DNA of 64,000 nucleotides from positions 1 through 64,000 of the forward strand of contig FUZG01000005.1 in NCBI GenBank assembly GCA_900168235.1, given 5' to 3'. Shown piece after piece: positions 5,080 to 17,002 of this stretch. Position 1 is the first letter of the stretch; each line of letters begins with the position of its first letter. The position numbers were made by a program, and so were the translations under genes. The stretch is from Lachnospiraceae bacterium. GTDB taxonomy: Bacteria; Bacillota; Clostridia; Lachnospirales; Lachnospiraceae. The notes under the pieces were generated by a model. The model saw nothing but the letters and a program-made list of their open reading frames with translations, was not told the origin of the DNA and did not search any database.

Positions 5080-5670
5080 TTAAGCACCGAAGCTTTTTCT
5101 CGGATACCTTTCCTTGAGCACTTCGCAGTAGCCGATAAGGAGATTTCTGAACTCCTCAAAAGTAAATTCTGCCTTGAAGTTCTCAAGCTTTTCTATCTTG
5201 TGGTTGTTGTGCGGATTTCTTCTGTCCTTTGCAAACACGTGCTCTTTATTCCAGAATCCGACGTCTGTAAATCTGGTTACGTCATTAAATGCGATGGTCT
5301 TATTTTCAGGATCAACTGCGATATGGGTATGGATAGCTGCGTGACGCATCCTTAAAAGAACGTTCTTCGGTGTTACCTTTTCCTCTGAGTTCATAATACG
5401 GAAGAAGCCATTTACATAGCCTCTTGCAAAATATGTATCTACGATAGGCTTTTCAGCATCCTCTGCTGAATGTGCGGCAAATACTTCTGCAGCTTTTGAG
5501 CCTTCTGTAAATGTCATTTCATCATCAAGTACTGACAGATCATCAGCCTTGGGATAAAGAACAAGTCCGTTCACAGCATTTACCAGTACGCTGAAATCAT
5601 CCTCTGCGGCACTCTTAAGTGACTCTGCGGTCTTATCAAGATACAGACCGATCAATTCTCTTTCTTCCAT
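5080..5670 (-). CDS. Uncharacterised protein, HEPN-like
   Basis: A 196-residue soluble protein that I do not recognise with certainty. The start is placed at the ATG at 5670, behind GAGAAAGGA; a TTG at 5718 is in frame but has no ribosome site. The middle reads VLLRMRHAAIHTHI followed by IAFND, which resembles the R-x4-H motif and following strand of HEPN-fold families (RNA-binding or RNase domains, often in toxin-antitoxin or stress systems), and the C-terminal FTFEEFRNLLIGYCEVL looks like the closing helices. No antitoxin-like partner sits beside it; the next gene upstream is a DUF1700 membrane protein 51 nt away. HEPN assignment is inference from motif shape only. Confidence 0.55.
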   Translation of the reverse strand: MEERELIGLYLDKTAESLKSAAEDDFSVLVNAVNGLVLYPKADDLSVLDDEMTFTEGSKAAEVFAAHSAEDAEKPIVDTYFARGYVNGFFRIMNSEEKVTPKNVLLRMRHAAIHTHIAVDPENKTIAFNDVTRFTDVGFWNKEHVFAKDRRNPHNNHKIEKLENFKAEFTFEEFRNLLIGYCEVLKERYPRKSFGA

Positions 5671-5721
5671 AAAAAACAAAAATCCTTTCTCTTTCTTTAA
5701 TGCATAACAGCCGTACAAAAA

Positions 5722-6180
5722 TCAGCTGTTAAACATCCTGAACACGAGCCAGGCAACGGCTATCACGACAAGAGCAGGCGCTAAGAAGACAATAAACGAT
5801 CCTACAAGGAATATGATAAGTACGAGAACAAGTATGGCAATAAGAGGTACTGCTATCATGGCAAGGGTTGCTTTCCATCCGGTCAGTATCTTCGCTCTTT
5901 CCTCATCAGCCTTACGCTTTTCTTCCTTTTTCTCCTCTTCATCTTTCCACTCTTCATAGGAAGCCCCCCGAAGATTCTGAGGATCACTGGTTTCTATTAT
6001 GGTTTTTGCAAGAAGACGCGGATTTCCAAGGCTTTCAATGACTTCTTCCTCACTTCTGCCTTTTCTCTTTTCCGTTTCTATATATTCTTCATAATAGCGA
6101 ACATTTTCAGTTATTATCTGCGAGCTCACACTTCCGCGGAGTGCATCAGAAAGCTCTGTTAAAAATGCCTGTTCTGTCAT
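5722..6180 (-). CDS. DUF1700/HAAS-domain membrane protein
   Basis: A 152-residue membrane protein. The N-terminal 75 residues form the helical DUF1700/HAAS signature (LTELSDAL near 10, YYEEYIE near 30, GRSEEEVIESLGNP near 42). A charged helical linker rich in Glu and Lys follows (about 80-100), then two hydrophobic segments near 105-130 and 132-150. HAAS proteins usually sit beside a PadR regulator and are thought to act as its membrane partner; none is seen here. The start at 6180 is chosen because GGAAGG lies 7 nt upstream; the ATG at 6195 would place that site inside the gene. Function unknown. Confidence 0.75.
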   Translation of the reverse strand: MTEQAFLTELSDALRGSVSSQIITENVRYYEEYIETEKRKGRSEEEVIESLGNPRLLAKTIIETSDPQNLRGASYEEWKDEEEKKEEKRKADEERAKILTGWKATLAMIAVPLIAILVLVLIIFLVGSFIVFLAPALVVIAVAWLVFRMFNS

Positions 6181-6210
6181 ATTTTTTCCTTCCATGTTCA
6201 GATGGTTTTC

Positions 6211-6491: not shown

Positions 6492-9400
6492 TTATGCATT
6501 ATTCTGTTTTTCTTTTTCTTTTACTTTTTCTTCTTTCTTTTTCCGTGTCAGGATAAAAGCAAGTACAAGTATCGCCGCGGCACTAATGCCCGCTACCAGC
6601 GGTATTACCCACGAAAATACCGGTCCCAGAATATAGAACGTTCCGTCACCATCCATGGAAAATACCAGATATTTTCCATCTTTTTCCGTTTCAAGAGCGG
6701 TCAGCTTTCCATCCTTAATAACAGCGGCCTTTGCATCATCAGGAACGCCGTCCGCAAGGAGACGCACAACCCACTTCTCTCCGATAGTACCGTAATCCGC
6801 GTGGATCTGATATGTATATTTCTTTAATATCTTCGCAAAGCCTTCCGGAAGTTCCAGCTTCTCAGACGGAGTCTGTTCCGTATATGTGAGAGTCGTTCCT
6901 TTATAGAAATTTCCGGAGACCAGCATTACAGGGAAGGGTTCATCCGATGCCACTGTTGTTACAAGCGATATATAACGCGCCTGAATAGTGATATTTCTCC
7001 TGATATCCGTAAGATCCGTGTCTTCCCATATTCCAAACTTATCTCCGACTATCGGAAGCTCCGGGTGATCATCATTTGAAATCGATCCGCCGTATGGCAC
7101 CTCTATCATTTGAACGATATTTCCGTCTGCAATGTAGCTTACATGCATGGTCTTCGCATCGTCCGGTGTGTTGGGGATTGCAATAAATTCTTCGTATGTA
7201 ACAGACTTTGCCTGGTCATCATATGTGAGACCATTTACTGCGCCAAGCTCATTTTCTACGTATATATTCTGTGATACCGTACTCTCTTTATCATCGATAT
7301 CACCCGCTATTACTCCGGTGTATTCCTTGCCTGCTGACTGGATATCAGCCATAGCGCGGTTTCCTATGACACGTCTTCCAAATCCTGCCACACCGCCCAC
7401 ATATTTATTACCTGAAATACTGGTCATTGAAAAGCAGTCCCGGATCACATATCTGCTCTTACCGGTTATACCGCCTGCGTAATCGCCGTCTTCCGTCCGA
7501 ACATTTCCAAAATTATAGGAAGAAAGCACTGCACCTATATCCATGCTTCCTGCAATACCGCCTGCATTGCTGTTCTGAACCTTTACATAACCGTAGTTCG
7601 TGCAGTCAATGACTGTCGCTCTTTTAGTCCTGTCATACTTCAGGCTCACCTGACCTGAGGACACCACTTCAAAATCCGACTGAATATCTATATCGGTGTC
7701 AGCCATACCTACGATACCGCCGCCATTGATATCCGAGCGGATCACGCCTGTATTTGTACACTGTGTAATTCTTCCCTGTGCAGGGGTATTGTCACTGTCA
7801 TCAGAGATATCATCAAAAATATCATTGATATCATCTGTATTACGATACCGTTCAAGAACATTTGTTATCTGGTCAAAACTGTCATTAACCGCAGTATTCA
7901 GGCGCTTAAGAGTCTCATTTATCTCTCCTGTCTTACCTCTGACTCTGCTGTCACTTTCCTTTAATTCTTCATTAAGAGTATCCATTTCAGACGCCAGCGT
8001 GTCGATCTTTGACGTGATGTTTTCATCTGTCGCCCTGAAATCATTTTTGTAGCTGTCATAGACGATGCGGAGCGTATCATCCAGTGAATTAGACGCATCC
8101 CTCAGTCTCTCAAGGTCTTTTTCTGTATCCCTGAGGCTTTCACCTGCCTTCATTCCATCTCCCAGAAGAGAATCAACCTGTGTCAGGATATCCGACGAAA
8201 GCTTCATGAGCTTACTTGAGTAATTGGTCATATCAAGGGATACACCGCTCCCTGCGGCTTTTTCCGCAGCATCCATAAGGTCAGACAGATCATTTAAGTC
8301 TGCCTGGAGCGCCTTGAACGCATTTTTCGTATCACCATTCACAAGATCCGGATCAAGACCTTCTATGATTGAACGGACTTCACTCGTATGAGAACGGATC
8401 TCGCTCTCCATCTGGTCATCTTTATTACGGTAATACTCTTTATATCCGCTTACCGTACCTCGAAGATCATCGGCTGTTCCGCGAATGGAATCGATATTTG
8501 TCTGCGCCTTAAGATCTTCCTGCTCCATTATCTTCTGAAGCTCTGCAAGATCATCTACAAGCGTATCAGCTTCGGCACGGGTCGTATCCAGCGCATCCTC
8601 ATGGTAAGCATTCACGCAATAGGGCTCCAGCTGACCTGCGATACCGCCTGTATTTTTTCGTCCGCTGACTGCTCCGTTATTACTGCATGAACTTAGTATT
8701 CCCCGCTCGTATCCGACGATACCGCCTGTTTTATAACCCGTGTGATCATAGCCTACCACGCCGTTATTTATACATCCTGAGATTGTTCCAGATGACGCCC
8801 CGGCGATGCCTCCGGTGTAATTAACCTTCTGGTCATTCTGCAGCAGTTCAGAGAGATCATCATCCTTCAGGTCGATACCATCAGGATTGAGCTTACTCAG
8901 CGCATCACTTGTCCTGATCTCATCGTCATCAGAATCATCTTCACTTTCAGCGGCTTTTTCGCGCTCATCATTTATTTCCCATGCGGTCTTTCGTCCTGCA
9001 TTGACCTCACCTGAATTTTCCGAATCAATAATGGTTCCTTCGTTGAATCCGGCGATGCCTCCGGTCCTTCTCATACCTGTAACGGTACTGTAATTTACAG
9101 TCCTTACAATACGGCCGCTTTCCATATTGTGGCCTGTCGCTCCGCCTACAGCTTCCATTCCAAAAGCATTTCCCGAAACTGTGCAGTCCTCAATACAGCC
9201 ATAGTTTGAACCGACCATGATACCTACATCGTTCATCCCGCTCTCAGGATTAACGTTTCCCTCAACCCGGAGATTACGTACCAGTCCGTTCTTTGCAAGA
9301 ACCCTGATAAATCCGATATTTGAACCGTTTTCTTCGAAGTTAAAGCCTGAAATGGTATGACCGCATCCGTCAAGCGTACCCGCAAATATGGAGATCATAC

Positions 9401-9692
9401 CGAAGTCGGTTCCTGAGAGATCAATATCATCCGTAAGCACCCAGATCTTTCCTTCACTGTCGCTGTCACTCTGGAGCCTCTTTGCAAAGTTCAGGAAATC
9501 CTCCGTCGAAGAAATACGGGTCGCTTTTATACGGTTCCCCGATTCCGAGAAAACGTTTTTCTCCTCTGCTGTTGCGGCGTATACGGGAGCCGCCTTTATG
9601 GGCACCCCCGAAATAACACACGATACCGCAAGCCCCGCTGCCAGCATATACGCTATTCTTTTATGAAAATGTCTGGTAGTTCTAATTTTCAT
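6492..9692 (-). CDS. Large membrane-anchored GLUG-repeat surface protein (copy 2 of operon)
   Basis: A 1066-residue exported protein. A signal peptide (about 1-40, ending AAPVYA) leads into beta-helix-type GLUG repeats (GGIAGFNEG, GGIAGASSG, GGIVGYERG, GGIAGQLEP; about 60-370). A long acidic helical segment with coiled-coil character (about 370-650) breaks the repeats, and more GLUG units follow (about 655-800: GGIVGMADT, GGIAGSMDI, GGITGKSR, GGVAGFG). A beta-rich membrane-proximal domain (LVSGNFY near 910) precedes one TM helix and a Lys/Glu-rich cytoplasmic tail. It is a full-length paralog of the protein at 12301. The start at 9692 lies 4 nt past the transporter stop, behind AGGT, so the genes are cotranscribed. 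Function unknown; an extracellular partner of the RND transporter is plausible. Confidence 0.85.
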   Translation of the reverse strand: MKIRTTRHFHKRIAYMLAAGLAVSCVISGVPIKAAPVYAATAEEKNVFSESGNRIKATRISSTEDFLNFAKRLQSDSDSEGKIWVLTDDIDLSGTDFGMISIFAGTLDGCGHTISGFNFEENGSNIGFIRVLAKNGLVRNLRVEGNVNPESGMNDVGIMVGSNYGCIEDCTVSGNAFGMEAVGGATGHNMESGRIVRTVNYSTVTGMRRTGGIAGFNEGTIIDSENSGEVNAGRKTAWEINDEREKAAESEDDSDDDEIRTSDALSKLNPDGIDLKDDDLSELLQNDQKVNYTGGIAGASSGTISGCINNGVVGYDHTGYKTGGIVGYERGILSSCSNNGAVSGRKNTGGIAGQLEPYCVNAYHEDALDTTRAEADTLVDDLAELQKIMEQEDLKAQTNIDSIRGTADDLRGTVSGYKEYYRNKDDQMESEIRSHTSEVRSIIEGLDPDLVNGDTKNAFKALQADLNDLSDLMDAAEKAAGSGVSLDMTNYSSKLMKLSSDILTQVDSLLGDGMKAGESLRDTEKDLERLRDASNSLDDTLRIVYDSYKNDFRATDENITSKIDTLASEMDTLNEELKESDSRVRGKTGEINETLKRLNTAVNDSFDQITNVLERYRNTDDINDIFDDISDDSDNTPAQGRITQCTNTGVIRSDINGGGIVGMADTDIDIQSDFEVVSSGQVSLKYDRTKRATVIDCTNYGYVKVQNSNAGGIAGSMDIGAVLSSYNFGNVRTEDGDYAGGITGKSRYVIRDCFSMTSISGNKYVGGVAGFGRRVIGNRAMADIQSAGKEYTGVIAGDIDDKESTVSQNIYVENELGAVNGLTYDDQAKSVTYEEFIAIPNTPDDAKTMHVSYIADGNIVQMIEVPYGGSISNDDHPELPIVGDKFGIWEDTDLTDIRRNITIQARYISLVTTVASDEPFPVMLVSGNFYKGTTLTYTEQTPSEKLELPEGFAKILKKYTYQIHADYGTIGEKWVVRLLADGVPDDAKAAVIKDGKLTALETEKDGKYLVFSMDGDGTFYILGPVFSWVIPLVAGISAAAILVLAFILTRKKKEEKVKEKEKQNNA

Positions 9693-9696
9693 ATTA

Positions 9697-12279
9697 TTAC
9701 CTGTGACTGTCTTCCTGTTTTTCCGATGCACTTACTTCTATAACCTTGTCAGCACCGTTATCTTCATCATCCGGCGTACTCTCCGTGATCTCGTCCGGCG
9801 CTTCAGAACCGTTTTCTGAAGCATTACCTCTTCTAAGCGTAAGATCCATGTCACCATTCATCGTTCCCTTAAATTCACCGATGAGATAACCTGAGAAATA
9901 GCCGTTCACAACACCATTCACAACCATTGTTCCTGCTGTTTTCTGGAGTACAGAACCTGTTCCCATAACAGATATTTCCGGTGTCTTTACACTGAAGCTC
10001 GTCCTGTCGAGGATAGGATCCACAAGGAACAGGAGCTGAGGAAGAACCGTCATAACAAGGATGATGCTTGTAAATGTTCCTCTTCCAAGCACGAGACCCA
10101 GGTTTGCGATAACCGCGTTACTTGTGATATTCGCAATGAGAAGTCCGCATGCTGTAAGGATAGATCCGCTTGTAAGGATAGTCGCAAAGGACTCATTTAA
10201 GCTCTGTACTATAGCCTGCTGCTTATCCGGCAGTTCTTTTCTGAGGTGCACGTATCTATTCGTGATAACGATAGCATAGTCGATCGTAGCACCCATCTGG
10301 ATGGAGCTTACGATAAGATATGCCAGGAAATACAGCGGTGCATGCTGAAGGTACGGGAACGAGAAATTAATCCAGATACTTCCCTGAATAGTCATGAGCA
10401 GCACAAGAGGCAGGCTTATAGACTGGAAAGTGAACAGCAGTATCATTCCTACAAAAAACGCCGTAAGAATGCTGATCAGCAGGTTATCGTGACTAAAGGA
10501 GCTTGAAAGGTCGTCATTACTTGTGGCATCACCTACAACATAAACTCTGCCCTTATAATGCTCCTGAGCCATGTTCCTGATCTCACGGACCTTATCATAA
10601 ACTTCCTGTCCCTCTGCAGCTCCTGTAAGTGTGAATACGATTCGTGAATGGTTCTCACTTTCGAGCTGTTTACGGGCATTTTCTATCTGATCATGGATAT
10701 CAGTGATGTCCTGTGACTGCTTTGCGCTTAAGTTAAAAGCGCCAGCTTCTTTTTTATCATATATAAAGTCGATCAGATCGATAACAGACACCCGGTATTC
10801 ATCTATACCGTCTATAAACGCTCCATAGATTTCCTTATCCTGTGCATATGCTGTATAGAGAAGCTTTGCCAGTCCGACATCGATCTTTGCAACTTCCGCA
10901 AATTCTCTCGGATTCAGGTCATCTGTAAGGACGTATTCCTTTTCATCGCCGACATCTACATTTGCCAGAGCAAGGATATCATCTACATAATCTCTGGTCT
11001 TCAGATTCTGTATTATCTCCGCCTCAGTCGCATAGTCGCCCTTTGGCAGTACTATAGCCACATTGGTTCCTGTTTCAAATGTCTTGTCTATCCTGTCCTT
11101 TGCCGCGATATACGGAGTCATCTTCGGTCCGCGTGCCGTATTTTTATCAAAAATATACGGACACTTCTGAGAAAAACCGAACGCAAAAACAAGTGTTATT
11201 ACAAATAAAACAGGGAGCACAAATCTTGTCTTATATATAAACTTTCCCCAGTAATTGATCTGCGGAACGAAGCTCCTGTGCCTTGTTTTATCGATGAGCT
11301 TGCGGAATGTCATGATAAGTCCCGGCATGAAAAGGAATACCGTTACCATCGAGAACAGGATCGCCTTGCAGAGAACCATTCCAAGGTCACGTCCGATCTG
11401 GAACCTCATGAATACCAGTGCGACCATTCCTGCCATGGTCGTAAGTGAGCTTGATGAGATCTCAACGATCGCTTTTGAAAGAGCTATTACCATAGCATCT
11501 CTCGCATCCAGACCCTTATCACGCTCCTCTATGTATCTGTGGAACATGATGATCGCATAGTCGATGGCAAGCGCAAGCTGAAGGATTATATCAACCGCAT
11601 TTGAAATATAGGATACTGTTCCAAAGATGTAGTTAGTTCCCTTATTCAGGATCGCTGCCATCAGGAACGTGAGCATAAAGATCGGAACTTCCGCATATGT
11701 TGATGATGTAAAGATCAGCACTGCGAGGATGACTACTACAGCGAGTCCGAGGATAACCCTGACATCACTCTGAAGCTCGGCAGATTCATCAAGGTCTACC
11801 GTCGTATAAACGTAATTGTCATAATCCTTTACGTATTCCCTGACTGCCGCTATCGCTTTCTGAGAAAGCTCAGTGTCTTTATCCTCTTCAAACATAAGCG
11901 TGATGAGCGCTGCGGAATCCTTATAGTACTCATCAAGAGTCGCATCCGAATAGTCCGAATTGTCGGGGTCATAGAACTTTACGGTATCTATGCCGTCAAT
12001 ATTTTCCAGACCGTTTGCCACAGCAAGAGCCCGCTCATACGTGATATTTGTGAGCAGGATCTTTGCAGAACCGTTAGTCTGAAATTCTTCATCCATCAGA
12101 TCCACACCCTGACGGGTCTCGGTATCTTCCGGAAGATATCTTGTGACATCATTCTCAACCGTAACACGGCTGATCATCGCACCACAGTATATAGCCGCAA
12201 TGACGAAGAGCAGCATAAAGAGCTTTCGCCTGTCTACAATGAACGCGGCTATTTTATACATAATGTTTTTTTCTTCCAT
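9697..12279 (-). CDS. MMPL/RND-family transporter
   Basis: An 860-residue membrane transporter of the MMPL/RND superfamily with the usual duplicated layout: TM1 (about 20-37), an extracellular domain (about 40-172), TM2-6 (about 173-325), TM7 (about 352-370), a second extracellular domain (about 372-595) and TM8-12 (about 598-760). Both halves carry the paired Asp-Tyr of proton-driven MmpL3-type pumps: D240-Y241 in LAIDYA and D667-Y668 in ATIDYA. The C-terminal 90 residues are unusual, with Gly-rich GTMVVNG-GYFSG-GEFKG-GTMNG units and then an acidic tail. GGAG lies 9 nt before the ATG. It sits between two GLUG surface proteins under a TetR promoter. The substrate is unknown; lipids, glycolipids or antimicrobial compounds are typical for the family. 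Confidence 0.92.
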   Translation of the reverse strand: MEEKNIMYKIAAFIVDRRKLFMLLFVIAAIYCGAMISRVTVENDVTRYLPEDTETRQGVDLMDEEFQTNGSAKILLTNITYERALAVANGLENIDGIDTVKFYDPDNSDYSDATLDEYYKDSAALITLMFEEDKDTELSQKAIAAVREYVKDYDNYVYTTVDLDESAELQSDVRVILGLAVVVILAVLIFTSSTYAEVPIFMLTFLMAAILNKGTNYIFGTVSYISNAVDIILQLALAIDYAIIMFHRYIEERDKGLDARDAMVIALSKAIVEISSSSLTTMAGMVALVFMRFQIGRDLGMVLCKAILFSMVTVFLFMPGLIMTFRKLIDKTRHRSFVPQINYWGKFIYKTRFVLPVLFVITLVFAFGFSQKCPYIFDKNTARGPKMTPYIAAKDRIDKTFETGTNVAIVLPKGDYATEAEIIQNLKTRDYVDDILALANVDVGDEKEYVLTDDLNPREFAEVAKIDVGLAKLLYTAYAQDKEIYGAFIDGIDEYRVSVIDLIDFIYDKKEAGAFNLSAKQSQDITDIHDQIENARKQLESENHSRIVFTLTGAAEGQEVYDKVREIRNMAQEHYKGRVYVVGDATSNDDLSSSFSHDNLLISILTAFFVGMILLFTFQSISLPLVLLMTIQGSIWINFSFPYLQHAPLYFLAYLIVSSIQMGATIDYAIVITNRYVHLRKELPDKQQAIVQSLNESFATILTSGSILTACGLLIANITSNAVIANLGLVLGRGTFTSIILVMTVLPQLLFLVDPILDRTSFSVKTPEISVMGTGSVLQKTAGTMVVNGVVNGYFSGYLIGEFKGTMNGDMDLTLRRGNASENGSEAPDEITESTPDDEDNGADKVIEVSASEKQEDSHR

Positions 12280-12300
12280 TTTGTAAACTCCTACGGAATA

Positions 12301-15300
12301 TTACTTTCTTTTCTTCAGCCTTTTCTTTATAAAGATAAATGATCCAATCAAGATCATTAGTATAAGAACGATCGTTATGATCATCCGAATCCTGCTGTTC
12401 TTTTTCAGGATAACGAACTCACCGTCTCCCGTCATAGGGAACACCAGGTAATTACCATCCCTTTCAGACGGGATAATGGTCATTTCTCCGTTATTTACAG
12501 ACGCCGCAGTAATATCATTTCCATGATCACTGACCAAGAACCTTAATACATAGTTCTCATCAAGCTTTCCGTACATCGTCTGAATTTCATACCGGTATGC
12601 ACCAACAACGTGATAACCCTGTACCGGCTCAGCTTTCACCTGAGTTTCCATGAGAGTGACCGTGCTGTTATCATAGAAATTTCCTGATACCAGCAGTTTC
12701 GGGGTTTCTTCCGGCGTTGCAATAGTCGTTATATAATCCACGTAAACCGCGTGGATCGTGGTATTCTGACGCACATTTGAGAGATCCAGATTTTCCCAAT
12801 AACCAACTCTTCCATCCGTTCTCTTCGGTAACGGCGGGTATTCCTCGTATCGTACGCTTCCGCCGTATTTTACCCTCACAGACTTTATGATGGTTCCGTT
12901 ATCATCGAAATTCACCTGCATCTGTCTAAATTCCGTAGGAAGTCCGGTGATACCCATGAGTTCACCGTAATTTACAGGTCTGGTCTGCGTTTCGACTGTA
13001 TATCCGTCTACAGCCCCGGTTCCGTTTTGTACAAAAATATTGTCTTTAACGAGCCCGTCAGGATCTGCTTCACCAAGCACAGCACCGATATGTTCCTTTG
13101 TGCCGCCTACATTTGACAGGCATGCAGAACCTGTAAGTGTAGATCCATAGCCTGCGATACCGCCTACATTGCTGTTTCCGGATACCTCGCTCATGGAATA
13201 TGAATCACGTATCACATGAGCGCTTTTTCCTGCGACTCCGCCTGCGTAATCACCGTCTTTTGCTTCTACCCGTCCAAAATTATTGCCTGAAAGCACTGCT
13301 CCCATTTCCGCACGTCCTACGATACCGCCTGCATAATCATTTCTTGCAGTTACATCAGCTCTGTTTGTGCAGTCAAGGATGGTCGCTTTCCGCGTTCTTT
13401 TATAATTAAGGCTTATCTGTCCCTCTGACACTACTTCAAAGTCCGACTGAATATCACGGTCATAATCCATGATACCCACGATACCTCCCACATTGAAATC
13501 AGCATCGATCCTTCCTGTATTTACAGAAGAAATGATGGATCCCTTTGCGGGAGTCATATCCGGATCATCTGACACATCGTCAAATGCCTCCTCGATAGTC
13601 TCAGTCTGCTGTATCCGGTCAAGTTCCTGCTGGACTTCATCAAAACCGTCATCAAGTGTGCTGTTTATGGTCTGCATCTGACCTGTGATGGTATTCAGCT
13701 GATTCCTGACCTTTTCATCAGAATCCTTAAGTCCCTCGGAAAGCACGTCCATCTCGCCTGCAAGGCTGTCTGTCTTTCCTGTGATATCATCATCGGTCTT
13801 TCGGATGTCGCTCTTATAATCGTCTATGCATCCCCTTAGATAATCATCAAGAGCGCCTGACTTATCCCTTATATCATTGAGCTGGTCCTCAAGCTCTTCC
13901 AGATCGTCGACACCTTCCGCTGCCTGTCCTGAAAGGTCTGCGAGGCTGTCATTTACAGGCGCAAGAACTCTTATGAGCTTATCCATGTAATTTGTCATAT
14001 CGACGGCAATACCGCTCCCTGCAGCCTCTTCTGCGCTGTCCAGGAGCTTCTGAAGGTCTCCCAGACTGTCTTTCAGAGCTTTAAGAGCCTTTTTAGTATC
14101 TCCGCCGTAAACATCAGGATCTATCTCATCTACTGTACCGCGTATGCCGTCAACCTGTGAACGTATCTCACGCTCTACAGAATCATTTTTGCACTGATAA
14201 TAGGTTTTATAATTGCTGACAGTCTGACGGAGGTCATCTGCCGTATTCCTTATGGCATCTATATTCTGCTGTGCCCTGTCATCCTCGGATCCCACGGTAT
14301 TGTGAAGCTTATCCGTCATGTCCACCAGATCATCAAGCTGGTCGCCTGCTTCGGAAAAAGAATCCGTTGAGTATGAATTGAGCACAAAGGGCTCAAACTG
14401 TCCTGCGATTCCGCCGACATCCTTTCTGCCGTAGACCACACCGGTATTTCTGCACTCAGTGAGTATCCCTCTCTCATAACCCACTATTCCGCCTGTTTTG
14501 TAGCCTGTGTGTTTATATCCCACAATGCCTTCATTTGTGCAGTTCTCAATGACACCTGCAGATGCACCTGCTATTCCGCCGGTGTAGTTTATCTTCTGCT
14601 TATCTGTGAGCTTTTCTTTAATATCATCGTCTTTTATATCTATAGTATCAGGATTGAGCTTTGCCAGATCTTCATTGGTCTCATCAAGCTCTTCCATGTC
14701 TTCTGATCCAAAGCTTCCGCGCTCATCTTTTCTGGCATCATCAGTTTCCCACGCCGTTGTGCTTTCTGCATTGATCCTGCCTGAATTACGCGAATCTCTG
14801 ACCGTTCCCTCGTTAAAACCTGCGATGCCTCCGGTCCTGCGTGTTCCGAGGACTATCGCATCATTATTACAGGAAATGATCTCCCCGCCTTCCATATTTC
14901 TGCCTGTGATGCCTCCGACACACTCAGCACCAAGGACATAGCCTGAAAAGCTGACATTTTCCAGCACTCCGTAGTTCCTTCCGGAAACGCCGCCGATCTC
15001 TTTCATCACTCCATTCGGAGCCACATTTCCTGAGACATGGAGATCATGGATATAGCCTGTCTTTCCTACTGAACGGATGAACCCTGTCATATCAGAATTG
15101 CTCTCAACAGAAAATCCAGTAATGAAATGACCCTGACCATCAAACTCTCCTGCAAAAATGGAGATCGGTTTAAAATCAACGCCTTCAAGACTTATATCCT
15201 GTGTCAGGACATAAGTCTTTCCCATGGTAGACGCTTCAACTGTACTCTTTTTTACAAGAGCCTCAAAATCTTCTGCATTACCGATCCTGATCACGTCACC

Positions 15301-15438
15301 CGATAATTCATTTTTTTCAACAACTGCCCCGGTACTTCTCTCTTCCGCCTTGACATTTCCTACAAAAATAGAGGAAAATAATAATGACGCGGAAAGCATT
15401 ACCGCAGACAGCACTTTATAATATTTTTTCTTTCTCAT
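12301..15438 (-). CDS. Large membrane-anchored GLUG-repeat surface protein (copy 1 of operon)
   Basis: A 1045-residue paralog of the protein at 6492 with the same order of parts: signal peptide (about 1-35), GLUG beta-helix repeats (about 60-370), a long helical segment with heptad-like spacing (about 375-625), further GLUG repeats, a beta-rich domain with LVSGNFY, one TM helix and a basic tail. The helical segments match in detail: NYKTYYQCKNDSVEREIRS aligns with GYKEYYRNKDDQMESEIRS in the other copy. The ATG at 15438 gives a clean signal peptide; an in-frame TTG at 15456 is less likely. No clear Shine-Dalgarno precedes either. First gene of the three-gene operon; its promoter overlaps the TetR operator. 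Confidence 0.85.
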   Translation of the reverse strand: MRKKKYYKVLSAVMLSASLLFSSIFVGNVKAEERSTGAVVEKNELSGDVIRIGNAEDFEALVKKSTVEASTMGKTYVLTQDISLEGVDFKPISIFAGEFDGQGHFITGFSVESNSDMTGFIRSVGKTGYIHDLHVSGNVAPNGVMKEIGGVSGRNYGVLENVSFSGYVLGAECVGGITGRNMEGGEIISCNNDAIVLGTRRTGGIAGFNEGTVRDSRNSGRINAESTTAWETDDARKDERGSFGSEDMEELDETNEDLAKLNPDTIDIKDDDIKEKLTDKQKINYTGGIAGASAGVIENCTNEGIVGYKHTGYKTGGIVGYERGILTECRNTGVVYGRKDVGGIAGQFEPFVLNSYSTDSFSEAGDQLDDLVDMTDKLHNTVGSEDDRAQQNIDAIRNTADDLRQTVSNYKTYYQCKNDSVEREIRSQVDGIRGTVDEIDPDVYGGDTKKALKALKDSLGDLQKLLDSAEEAAGSGIAVDMTNYMDKLIRVLAPVNDSLADLSGQAAEGVDDLEELEDQLNDIRDKSGALDDYLRGCIDDYKSDIRKTDDDITGKTDSLAGEMDVLSEGLKDSDEKVRNQLNTITGQMQTINSTLDDGFDEVQQELDRIQQTETIEEAFDDVSDDPDMTPAKGSIISSVNTGRIDADFNVGGIVGIMDYDRDIQSDFEVVSEGQISLNYKRTRKATILDCTNRADVTARNDYAGGIVGRAEMGAVLSGNNFGRVEAKDGDYAGGVAGKSAHVIRDSYSMSEVSGNSNVGGIAGYGSTLTGSACLSNVGGTKEHIGAVLGEADPDGLVKDNIFVQNGTGAVDGYTVETQTRPVNYGELMGITGLPTEFRQMQVNFDDNGTIIKSVRVKYGGSVRYEEYPPLPKRTDGRVGYWENLDLSNVRQNTTIHAVYVDYITTIATPEETPKLLVSGNFYDNSTVTLMETQVKAEPVQGYHVVGAYRYEIQTMYGKLDENYVLRFLVSDHGNDITAASVNNGEMTIIPSERDGNYLVFPMTGDGEFVILKKNSRIRMIITIVLILMILIGSFIFIKKRLKKRK

Positions 15439-15479
15439 AGCACTTTTGATCGTCAACTGTTTGCAAGTGATTTACATTA

Positions 15480-15507
15480 ATTATACAACACTGTGATTTT
15501 TATTCAA
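15480..15507 (-). promoter_or_regulatory. Promoter of the GLUG/RND operon
   Basis: On the minus strand TTGAAT (15502-15507) and TATAAT (15480-15485) are 16 nt apart. The -35 lies in the left arm of the palindrome at 15504-15518, and a second half-site (GTGTTG read on this strand, plus-strand CAACAC 15486-15491) lies in the spacer. Confidence 0.8.
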
Positions 15508-15518
15508 CACCGTGTTGA
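15504..15518. promoter_or_regulatory. TetR-type operator palindrome
   Basis: TCAACAC and GTGTTGA form a perfect 7-bp inverted repeat around one central base. It overlaps the -35 elements of both divergent promoters, the classic place for an autoregulating TetR repressor to sit. Binding by the TetR protein encoded at 15611 is inferred from position and symmetry. Confidence 0.8.
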
Positions 15519-15543
15519 TTTACCAACCGCAATGTATTATAAT
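15515..15543 (+). promoter_or_regulatory. Promoter of the TetR gene
   Basis: TTGATT (15515-15520) and TATAAT (15538-15543) are 17 nt apart, facing right. The -35 box starts inside the right arm of the operator, so repressor binding should also repress the tetR gene. Confidence 0.8.
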
Positions 15544-15610
15544 GTCATTTGTAACGGATATCAATAGTCCTACGATAATTTTTTTATCAAATACCATAGG
15601 GTGAAAGCTT

Positions 15611-16192
15611 ATGAGAATGTCTGAAGTAAAAATGGATCGACGGATCCGAAAAACAAAAAGCCTGCTGTGGCACGGTCTGGCTACGTTAATGATGGAACAG
15701 GATATCCAGGATATCTCTGTAAAAAAACTTACTGAATTTGTGGATCTAAATCGCAGTACTTTTTATATCCACTATAAGGATATAAACCAGCTGCTCGAGT
15801 CCATCGAGAATGAGCTCATGGAGGAATTTCGCGAGATCATTTCTCACAACCTCGATATTTCCAATCTCTACGAATCCAATCTGCAGCTTTTGCACGAGCT
15901 TTATAAGGATCTTTTGCTCAATCGCGAGATCATCAGTGCGCTCCTTGGACCTCACGGTGATTTCCAGTTCATCAAGAAACTGAAAAATATTCTCACCGAA
16001 AGAATTGAAGAGGTCGGAAAATCTTTTAATTATTCTGAGGAAGTTCTCTCATATTATTCAGCATTCTGCTTTACAGGATGTGTCGGCATAATCCAGAATT
16101 GGATTGATACCGGTTTTGAACAGACTCCCGAACATATTGCAGATATTACAAACCGCTTTATGGTACAGGGCGTAGGTTCCATTCTTAGATAA
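15611..16192 (+). CDS. TetR/AcrR-family transcriptional regulator
   Basis: A 193-residue cytoplasmic repressor-type protein. The N-terminal 60 residues are a TetR helix-turn-helix: KSLLWHGLATLM, then the recognition region ISVKKLTEFVDLNRSTFYIHYKD. The C-terminal ligand domain (about 75-190) resembles the TetR_C family found in DhaS-like regulators. AGGGTG lies 9 nt before the ATG. Divergent from the GLUG/RND operon, with shared operator DNA at 15504-15518, so it very likely controls that operon and itself, released by an unknown small molecule, possibly a transporter substrate. Confidence 0.9.
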   Translation: MRMSEVKMDRRIRKTKSLLWHGLATLMMEQDIQDISVKKLTEFVDLNRSTFYIHYKDINQLLESIENELMEEFREIISHNLDISNLYESNLQLLHELYKDLLLNREIISALLGPHGDFQFIKKLKNILTERIEEVGKSFNYSEEVLSYYSAFCFTGCVGIIQNWIDTGFEQTPEHIADITNRFMVQGVGSILR

Positions 16193-16248: not shown

Positions 16249-16875
16249 TTATTCTTTACTTTCCGGCTGCTCTTCCTTACCTGCCGGTCCGGGAGCAGAT
16301 TCGATGGCTATCGAAACAACTTCTTTGTTTTCGTCATATGTAACAACGACCATCTTTCCTTCTTCTATGTCGTCTGTGGTGCAGTCCTTATACTCAGTAG
16401 TGCTTGTGAGCGTGAGTTCCAGTGTCTCACCCTTTGGAGCTTCTCCTGAGGGCTTTTCACCACTCGGAGCTTCTCCCGAGGGCTTTTCACCGCTTGGAGC
16501 TTCTCCTGAGGGCTTCTCTCCACCCGGAGCTTCTCCTGAGGGCTTCTCACCATTCGGTGCTCCGCCCATGGCAGGAAATGCCTCCAGAGTAAGCTTTTCA
16601 CCGTCTACTGAAGATACGATCGCACGAACTTCACTTCCGGCTTCTGACTCTGAAGAAACTGCTTCTGAATCCGAAGGTGCCGCATCTGTCGGCATTTCTG
16701 ATGGCGCATCGGGTGCAGAAGGCGCTTCACTTCCGGCTTCTGCAGGTGCCTCTGCTGAAGGAACCGCCTCGGGTTCTTTTGCAGAACTTCCGCACCCCAC
16801 TACTGCAAACGACAATATCGCTGCTGTAATAACCGCCGCCACTCTTGAATTACCTGTTTTTCTGATTCTTTTCAT
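16249..16875 (-). CDS. Repeat-containing lipoprotein
   Basis: A 208-residue predicted lipoprotein. The signal peptide ends in a lipobox, VVGC, with Cys near residue 28. A Pro/Ala/Ser/Glu-rich linker (about 30-80) leads to a beta-type segment (VRAIVSSVDGEKLTLEAF), then four to five tandem copies of a 10-residue unit GEKPSGEAPS (about 110-152), then another beta segment (LELTLTSTTEYKD, EGKMVVVTYDENKEV). The two beta parts look like one small OB-like domain of the DUF5666 kind with the repeat inserted in a loop; this is inference. GAGAGG lies 6 nt before the chosen ATG at 16875. Convergent with tetR. Function unknown. Confidence 0.75.
   Translation of the reverse strand: MKRIRKTGNSRVAAVITAAILSFAVVGCGSSAKEPEAVPSAEAPAEAGSEAPSAPDAPSEMPTDAAPSDSEAVSSESEAGSEVRAIVSSVDGEKLTLEAFPAMGGAPNGEKPSGEAPGGEKPSGEAPSGEKPSGEAPSGEKPSGEAPKGETLELTLTSTTEYKDCTTDDIEEGKMVVVTYDENKEVVSIAIESAPGPAGKEEQPESKE
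16434..16557 (-). repeat. Tandem 30-bp coding repeat (GEKPSGEAPS units)
   Basis: Four successive near-identical 30-bp units with small differences (for example TCACCACTCGGAGCTTC versus TCTCCACCCGGAGCTTC) lie in the lipoprotein gene. Copy number could change by slippage. Confidence 0.85.
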
Positions 16876-17002
16876 TATCATCCTCTCAATCCGGTCACGA
16901 CTATCTGACCTTATTAGCCAGCTTCCCGCTGTATGAGGATGATTTTAGTTTTATCTCATGAAAACTATTTGATGAATCTGTGAAAAAAGTACGAACTGTG
17001 TA

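Follow-up and report, generated by a model that had tools for sequence, protein, structure and literature searches.

Do RND-type pumps of monoderm bacteria work with a dedicated partner outside the membrane? This question is raised by a locus at positions 6,492–16,192 of the stretch that we analyzed, the first 64,000 nt of contig FUZG01000005.1 from a Lachnospiraceae bacterium (assembly GCA_900168235.1; hereafter, the window). Neither a mycomembrane nor an outer membrane is expected in Lachnospiraceae. The locus consists of a three-gene operon on the minus strand, in the order P0003, P0002 and P0001, preceded by a divergent gene for a TetR-type regulator; all four genes are open, as the initial annotation had described. 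P0002 is an MMPL/RND transporter that matches PF03176 along both of its halves (two stretches, E 7.8e-50), and it is flanked by two large proteins, here called GLUG/hairpin proteins, which are the only copies of their kind in the 3.79 Mb source genome and are indeed full-length paralogs, with identity at 481 of 1056 aligned positions (46%). Using longest-frame starts, the spacing is 21 nt between P0003 and P0002 and −35 nt between P0002 and P0001; the true starts may be an internal ATG at 15438 for P0003 and an ATG at 9692 for P0001.

A search of 299 Lachnospiraceae genomes using P0003 as query retrieved matches at 1e-10 in 56 genomes, 11 of which had only short GLUG matches that were not mapped, as was one further short match in genome G169; besides the window's own, 47 places in 44 genomes were mapped. 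In 45 of the 46 assessable loci, the GLUG/hairpin gene is immediately preceded by an MMPL gene in the same orientation, the 47th place (L061) beginning at a contig edge and not being assessable. The 45 include two pairs from genome G205 (L043 and L044) in which the MMPL and GLUG genes are both split into several frames. The ends of the two genes mostly touch or overlap, with longest-frame starts that overstate the overlap. Hence, the finding that the initial annotation had named as speaking against it, GLUG proteins commonly occurring apart from the transporter, was not made in these loci. In the reverse search with P0002, 46 of the 299 genomes contained matches that scored 300 bits or higher (49 in total), the next matches having at most 271 bits, and a GLUG/hairpin gene was next door in all 45 assessable genomes with this MMPL subfamily; in G016, not assessable, only 62 bases of contig follow the MMPL frame. 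Likewise, from 398 genomes drawn across the phylum, seven contained a GLUG/hairpin protein, either full-length or cut by a contig end, and in the five that belong to other families it was preceded by an MMPL gene or a piece of one (a second piece in G627 starts at the contig edge). Judged from these linkage counts, the co-arrangement of the operon genes is not due to chance, and the gene neighborhood suggests that the GLUG/hairpin protein is a partner dedicated to one MMPL subfamily. Because both genes travel together so strictly, pumps of this subfamily may use an undescribed partner that hands molecules into the wall.

Hydropathy assigns to each of P0001 and P0003 one N-terminal hydrophobic segment, taken as a signal peptide, and one C-terminal transmembrane (TM) segment, in agreement with the initial description. 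As for the GLUG repeats that had been ascribed to both paralogs, the whole-protein score of P0003 for the Glug motif (PF07581) was 24.5 bits against a cut-off of 20.5, in three stretches, and P0001 gave no match to this motif in the Pfam search; a PF07581 search across the whole source genome also returned no match at E 0.001. Since the motif passes in P0003 only and the genome-wide search was empty, GLUG is a weak label, which P0001 carries by homology. An AlphaFold2 model of P0003 predicts strands at residues 55–352, two helical arms at residues 364–480 and 487–616, each broken once and joined by a loop at 481–486, then strands at 640–1019 and a C-terminal helix. The inserted helical segment noticed initially thus appears in the model as a long hairpin, and an amphipathic alpha-helical periodicity near 100–102 degrees was found in both arms, in 44 of 46 aligned proteins each (median z 7.6 and 7.9). 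With a helix rise of 1.5 angstrom per residue, an arm of about 117 residues would span about 17 nm if straight and unbroken. The periodicity of the second arm centers on 100 degrees, as compared to a heptad value of about 103, and may correspond to a straight non-heptad packing.

The alignment used for these comparisons (A3; 46 rows) comprises proteins from 41 of the 47 family loci plus five rows from the window and loci L001 and L002, and it omits six contig-edge or fragmented pieces and one near-duplicate row. Variation among these proteins is unevenly distributed: the GLUG blocks are of near-constant length (176–180, 68 and 193–219 residues, the window's two proteins included), whereas the helical segment, including inserts, varies from 167 residues (locus L080, 8541–11297, adjoining ABC-F and manganese-efflux-like genes, named by eye) to 846. 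Most of the extra residues of the helical segment enter at a single point, the predicted tip of the hairpin; as placed by MAFFT, a total of 4849 inserted residues enter after residue 476, with at least 10 residues there in 38 of the 46 rows. The inserts are, by eye, of unlike kinds, such as Gly-Thr repeats in L036, beta-like repeats in L065 and L072, and a Pro-rich insert in L068. Across residues 351–640, conservation peaks at 351–360 (0.65), where the GLUG body ends, and is lowest at the tip (481–500; 0.14–0.17) and in a mostly gapped linker (611–620; 0.12). A variable tip with long inserts argues against a conserved docking end, and an adaptor in the sense of AcrA is therefore not supported; of the adaptor or wall-conduit role proposed in the initial annotation, a stalk or conduit is the part compatible with these data, with precedents in the coiled coils of MmpL proteins described below. 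In Pfam and NCBIfam, the helical parts gave weak matches to models for SNARE, SMC, apolipoprotein, MCE and the like, which were below their curated cut-offs and were discarded as coiled-coil noise; a Sec3_CC match in L165 was above its cut-off (29.7 against 27.1 bits) and was taken as coiled-coil similarity. In the GLUG/hairpin protein from L057 (8239–12855), the stretch between the TM position and the C-terminus has 503 residues, the median being 42.5.

Hydropathy of P0002 gave 14 windows, some of them overlapping their neighbors, which we took as about 12 TM segments with two large outside loops (residues 38–172 and 372–599; about 135 and 228 residues). Two intramembrane Asp-Tyr pairs, D240-Y241 and D667-Y668, are invariant in the 41 rows of the MMPL alignment (A4; 38 of the 47 family loci plus three), and are presumably the proton relay of a proton-driven pump, as in MmpL3. 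Judged by loop length alone, P0002 does not contain a coiled-coil insert of its own of about 200 or more residues; the size of its loops leaves little room for an insert like that of MmpL5. In 32 of the 41 A4 proteins, the tail after the last TM segment (window 9697–10008) shows two or more G-x-V-x-G-like repeats, which by eye we take to resemble a tiny bactofilin-type beta solenoid. The source genome has another open frame that matches PF03176, of 1091 residues, slightly above the cut-off (contig C16:32604-33056; 21.7 against 20.5 bits).

The adaptors of tripartite RND pumps, of the AcrA/HlyD type, have a long helical hairpin inserted into a beta body that sits beside the pump. The GLUG/hairpin proteins resemble them in plan only, as a moderate-confidence model places a helical hairpin in a beta-rich body encoded next to the pump gene; they differ in their variable tip with long inserts and in belonging to bacteria where no outer membrane is expected. 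Among the matches listed (for P0003, the first 25 from Pfam), no adaptor family model was above its cut-off (HlyD for P0001, 11.6 bits against 208.65), and no MmpS-like protein was found in the operon, the partners being proteins of 1051 and 1079 residues with a C-terminal TM segment, unlike the small, one-TM proteins with an immunoglobulin-like domain that make up the MmpS type. There is also a likeness with the mycobacterial MmpS5-MmpL5 and MmpL10 systems, which, in the available sections of the reports, also combine an MMPL engine, a single-TM accessory protein and a long helical coiled coil outside the membrane. In MmpL5, a coiled-coil insertion of 196 residues is essential for efflux and was modeled as a tube of about 13 nm (PMC12501195); in MmpL10, a coiled coil at residues 480–734 (255 residues) drives oligomer formation (PMC12183618); and MmpS5 is the single-TM accessory subunit of MmpL5 (PMC12501195; PMC12183618), all as given in those sections. 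Whereas these coiled coils are part of the pump, here a protein other than the pump carries the helical segment, embedded in its GLUG beta body, and the second outside loop of P0002 has about 228 residues in all, as compared to 196 and 255 for the inserts alone of MmpL5 and MmpL10.

Another comparable system is FarE/FarR, in which Gram-positive bacteria likewise combine an RND/MMPL pump and a regulator of the TetR family. According to the available sections of the sources, the regulator gene is divergent from the pump gene in Staphylococcus aureus (PMC10019231), FarE is needed for oleic-acid resistance in Lactobacillus gasseri (PMC11429459), and FarE is not expressed without FarR (PMC10019231; PMC11429459), so that its regulation is not plain repression. 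In contrast to the window, no hairpin partner is mentioned for FarE in those sections (PMC10019231; PMC11429459). No description of the MMPL plus GLUG/hairpin pair was found in the literature, judged from titles and beginnings of abstracts and with few subscription papers covered; within the same limits, the assertion that no recognized system has this exact set held, and an MMPL pump with a hairpin partner is apparently undescribed so far.

The reverse search also retrieved 42 lower-scoring MMPL places (hand-counted), of which 20 were hand-picked and fetched (L149–L168). In 17 of these 20 loci, the neighbor of the MMPL gene encodes a large protein of another kind, located downstream in 16 and upstream in one. 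The 17 partners align together (A5). As read from the sequence, they are similar to the GLUG/hairpin proteins in adjoining an MMPL gene and in having a signal-peptide-like start, a beta-type first part (here including the motifs YVNLD and LPW), a long helical middle, which is of variable length and rich in coiled-coil patterns, and a short conserved block near the end (here S.TS..N); they differ in lacking GLUG blocks and in ending with an amphipathic stretch instead of a TM segment. At 1e-10, this family was found in 40 of 299 phylum genomes, partly as short or helical-only matches. A comparison of both partner families with hhalign joined only 88 coiled-coil columns (probability 96.5, E 8.5e-10; run with no coiled-coil control); as coiled coils are expected to match in this way, we did not take this as evidence of homology. 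A link to YhgE/Pip was also considered and dropped: TIGR03057 (xxxLxxG heptad repeat) matched three of the 10 second-type partners scanned, but the literature on MMPL and YhgE looked irrelevant by titles and beginnings of abstracts. Two MMPL subfamilies each adjoin their own protein with a helical middle, which therefore would be outside partners of separate make.

Within the genus of the window, relatives were found in 45 of 48 genomes, and we retrieved 40 loci from 36 genomes, giving priority to triplet candidates; separate maps were made for the window and G079, seven of the 45 matched genomes were left unmapped, and L001 and L002 were taken as belonging to the same genomes as G737 and G692. 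The arrangement GLUG-MMPL-GLUG occurs in 17 of the 40 loci (six of them cut by a contig end) and in the window, MMPL-GLUG pairs in another 17, GLUG-GLUG-MMPL in two and GLUG-MMPL up to the contig end in one, while in three loci the GLUG gene is at, or next to, a contig edge. Among the loci mapped, the triplet was seen only within this genus. The three-gene order sought by the initial annotation thus recurs, yet the common form is the MMPL-GLUG pair, and we rejected the GLUG-flanked MMPL gene as the basic unit. In a tree of 64 proteins (short search; support by SH-like approximate likelihood ratio test only), the triplet copies form one clade of 38 rows with a support of 100. The upstream copies fall in two groups (11 rows, support 99; eight rows, support 96), whose union was not resolved in the tree, and the downstream copies form one group of 19 rows, whose support is only 83 and which includes one copy from each of the rearranged loci. 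In L227, the MMPL gene is accompanied by a downstream-type copy only, and in some cases, such as G693 (L217 and L237), a triplet and a separate pair occur in one genome. The simplest reading of the tree is that the triplet probably derives from one old duplication inside the genus that preceded the spread of the lineage, with both copies usually kept.

The features of the intergenic region fit a putative TetR operator at the palindrome in positions 15504–15518 (Table 1). The repeat arms TCAACA/TGTTGA are preserved in L001 and L002, the inverted-repeat pattern occurs in two places of the source genome, and the promoter consensus scan retrieved three sites, as compared to a mean of 1.2 in shuffled sequences. 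In the Pfam search, the TetR_N match of the regulator was below its curated cut-off.

Taken together, these analyses favor a model, to which we assign a probability of about 0.55, in which the MMPL pump of the locus transports an amphiphile and obtains its envelope-spanning coiled coil in trans, from a membrane-anchored GLUG/hairpin subunit. The locus would then be a two-component envelope machine of monoderm, Clostridia-type bacteria. Its proton-driven engine, the MMPL protein, would take a hydrophobic or amphiphilic molecule from the membrane, which by analogy with the MMPL family and with FarE could be a lipid, a fatty acid or another amphiphile. The GLUG/hairpin protein would be its dedicated extracytoplasmic subunit, held beside the pump by its signal peptide, two GLUG beta blocks, beta domain and C-terminal TM segment, and its helical hairpin, with more than 100 residues per arm, would project from the GLUG body into the wall zone. 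If the coiled-coil inserts of MmpL5 and MmpL10 are a guide, several hairpins would bundle there and form a stalk or tube above the pump. In one lineage of the genus, where the gene was duplicated, the pump is usually flanked by two different hairpin subunits, possibly as a hetero-oligomer, and the divergent TetR protein would probably repress the operon at the palindrome until a substrate-like ligand binds. What the data show directly are the linkage of the genes, the anatomy of the sequences, the duplication and the variability of the tip; the physical complex, the bundling of hairpins, a role as stalk or conduit, the class of substrate and the repression are inferences from them.

Several observations weigh against this trans-supplied coiled coil or some of its parts. 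The GLUG/hairpin gene of L080 is an orphan without an MMPL neighbor, in a genome that also has a full pair (L067), and no large partner was found beside the MMPL gene in three of the 20 second-type loci. The distances among GLUG proteins and among MMPL proteins correlate (r 0.82, 40 loci, none of 2000 shuffles as high), but this is confounded by genome kinship and was not used as proof. The AlphaFold2 model, made for P0003 only, is of moderate quality (mean predicted local distance difference test [pLDDT] of 62, predicted template modeling score of 0.45), and that of the transporter was unusable (pLDDT 32); a Foldseek search found no PDB match at E 0.001 or better. The poorly conserved tip and its unlike inserts do not indicate a conserved outer partner, and we found no hint of the substrate among the neighboring genes identified around the locus. 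As for repression, the better operon promoter match (11/12) is upstream of the palindrome, and a TetR gene is the immediate neighbor in only 16 of the 47 loci with a neighbor before the contig end, being one small open reading frame away in two more (L057 and L141), and adjoins nine of the 40 genus loci. A TetR gene, included in the set by the initial annotation, is frequent, and we rejected it as a defining part. As a whole, that earlier interpretation is partly supported.

Nothing in the variable tip points to a conserved partner at its outer end, so that a stalk, spacer or antenna competes seriously with the tube. The GLUG/hairpin protein could be a partner of the pump and not a conduit, its hairpin holding the variable tip, or the GLUG surface, within the wall, where the transported molecule or a wall polymer could be captured, bound or presented. 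The poorly conserved tip, with very dissimilar inserts that by eye include low-complexity and domain-like repeats, would suit such a role, as would the acidic nature of the helical segments and the best, non-significant Foldseek match, to a region of the Lactobacillus reuteri SRRP (5nxk, E 0.022), a beta-solenoid adhesin; on its own, however, this explanation leaves unexplained why the partner families of two MMPL subfamilies both have long helical middles, and we consider it rather unlikely. More improbable is that the GLUG/hairpin protein is an ordinary surface adhesin, with the MMPL protein aiding its maturation or supplying a lipid environment, so that both are functional neighbors without a shared complex. 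GLUG blocks are common apart from the pair, the other matches of the phylum search covering mostly GLUG positions only in other, often longer frames, but the near-strict one-to-one linkage in both directions argues against this, as do the single C-terminal TM segment and the lack of any wall-sorting signal seen by eye. The chances are comparably slim that P0002 is a FarE-type exporter of multiple drugs or fatty acids and works without a partner, its neighbor being a dispensable accessory of convenience. The divergent TetR gene matches FarR/FarE, no accessory protein is mentioned for FarE in the available sections of the reports (PMC10019231; PMC11429459), and the second-type loci devoid of a large partner point in the same direction; nevertheless, the window's MMPL subfamily lacked its neighbor in none of the 45 assessable genomes, and 17 of the 20 loci examined for the second subfamily contain a partner of their own.

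If the coiled coil is indeed supplied in trans, the near-obligate hairpin partner would be a defined outside subunit for the RND pumps of Gram-positives, whose roles are described, in the available sections of the source, as less well defined than in Gram-negatives (PMC10019231). It would also offer a testable route for lipids or drugs past the membrane and into or through the thick wall, and the mycobacterial coiled-coil tube would join a wider pattern, being fused to the pump in one lineage and provided in trans in another. A broader proposal, which we regard as tentative and on balance doubtful, is that monoderms have envelope-crossing RND machines whose coiled-coil tube is a separate membrane-anchored subunit, that at least two unrelated hairpin families were recruited by two MMPL subfamilies, that the lineage of the window builds its tube from two hairpin subunits, and that the variable tip adapts its length or end to the wall or capsule. 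On a practical level, the linkage could serve as a gene-neighbor rule for annotating large surface proteins in Lachnospiraceae.

Table 1. Position of the genes, protein regions and putative regulatory sites of the locus, in window coordinates.
Feature	Position	Strand	Basis
Downstream GLUG/hairpin protein P0001, 1079 aa	6492..9731	-	open frame, alignment to P0003
Helical hairpin of P0001, residues about 378-630	7842..8600	-	alignment to P0003
MMPL/RND transporter P0002, 860 aa	9697..12279	-	open frame, PF03176 match
Upstream GLUG/hairpin protein P0003, 1051 aa	12301..15456	-	open frame, Pfam match, AlphaFold2 model
C-terminal TM segment of P0003, residues 1025-1043, then basic tail	12328..12384	-	hydropathy
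Second GLUG block and beta domain of P0003, residues 640-1019	12400..13539	-	block lengths; model
Helical hairpin of P0003, residues 364-616	13609..14367	-	model; helical periodicity
Hairpin-tip insert point of P0003, after residue 476	14026..14031	-	MAFFT placement of relatives' long inserts
First GLUG beta region of P0003, residues 55-357	14386..15294	-	strands in model; two blocks of near-constant length in 46 aligned proteins
Operon promoter-like site TTGAAT-16-TATAAT, 10/12; first hexamer overlaps inverted repeat	15480..15507	-	consensus scan only
Putative operator, perfect inverted repeat TCAACAC-N-GTGTTGA, between divergent genes	15504..15518	.	sequence
TetR-gene promoter-like site TTGATT-17-TATAAT, 10/12; first hexamer overlaps inverted repeat	15515..15543	+	consensus scan only
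Alternative operon promoter-like site TTGATA-17-TATAAT, 11/12; upstream of inverted repeat	15536..15564	-	consensus scan only
TetR-type regulator, 193 aa, divergent	15611..16192	+	open frame; TetR_C_8 match E 1.1e-17

Outside of the operon and its regulator, positions 5080–6195 of the window, after the operon, contain genes for a HAAS-domain protein and for a protein of 212 residues with a HEPN match below cut-off; L001 and L002 have genes of similar size at the matching position. On the other side, adjoining the TetR gene (16249–16881), there is a gene for a short lipoprotein-like protein with GEAPSGEKPSGEAP-type repeats.

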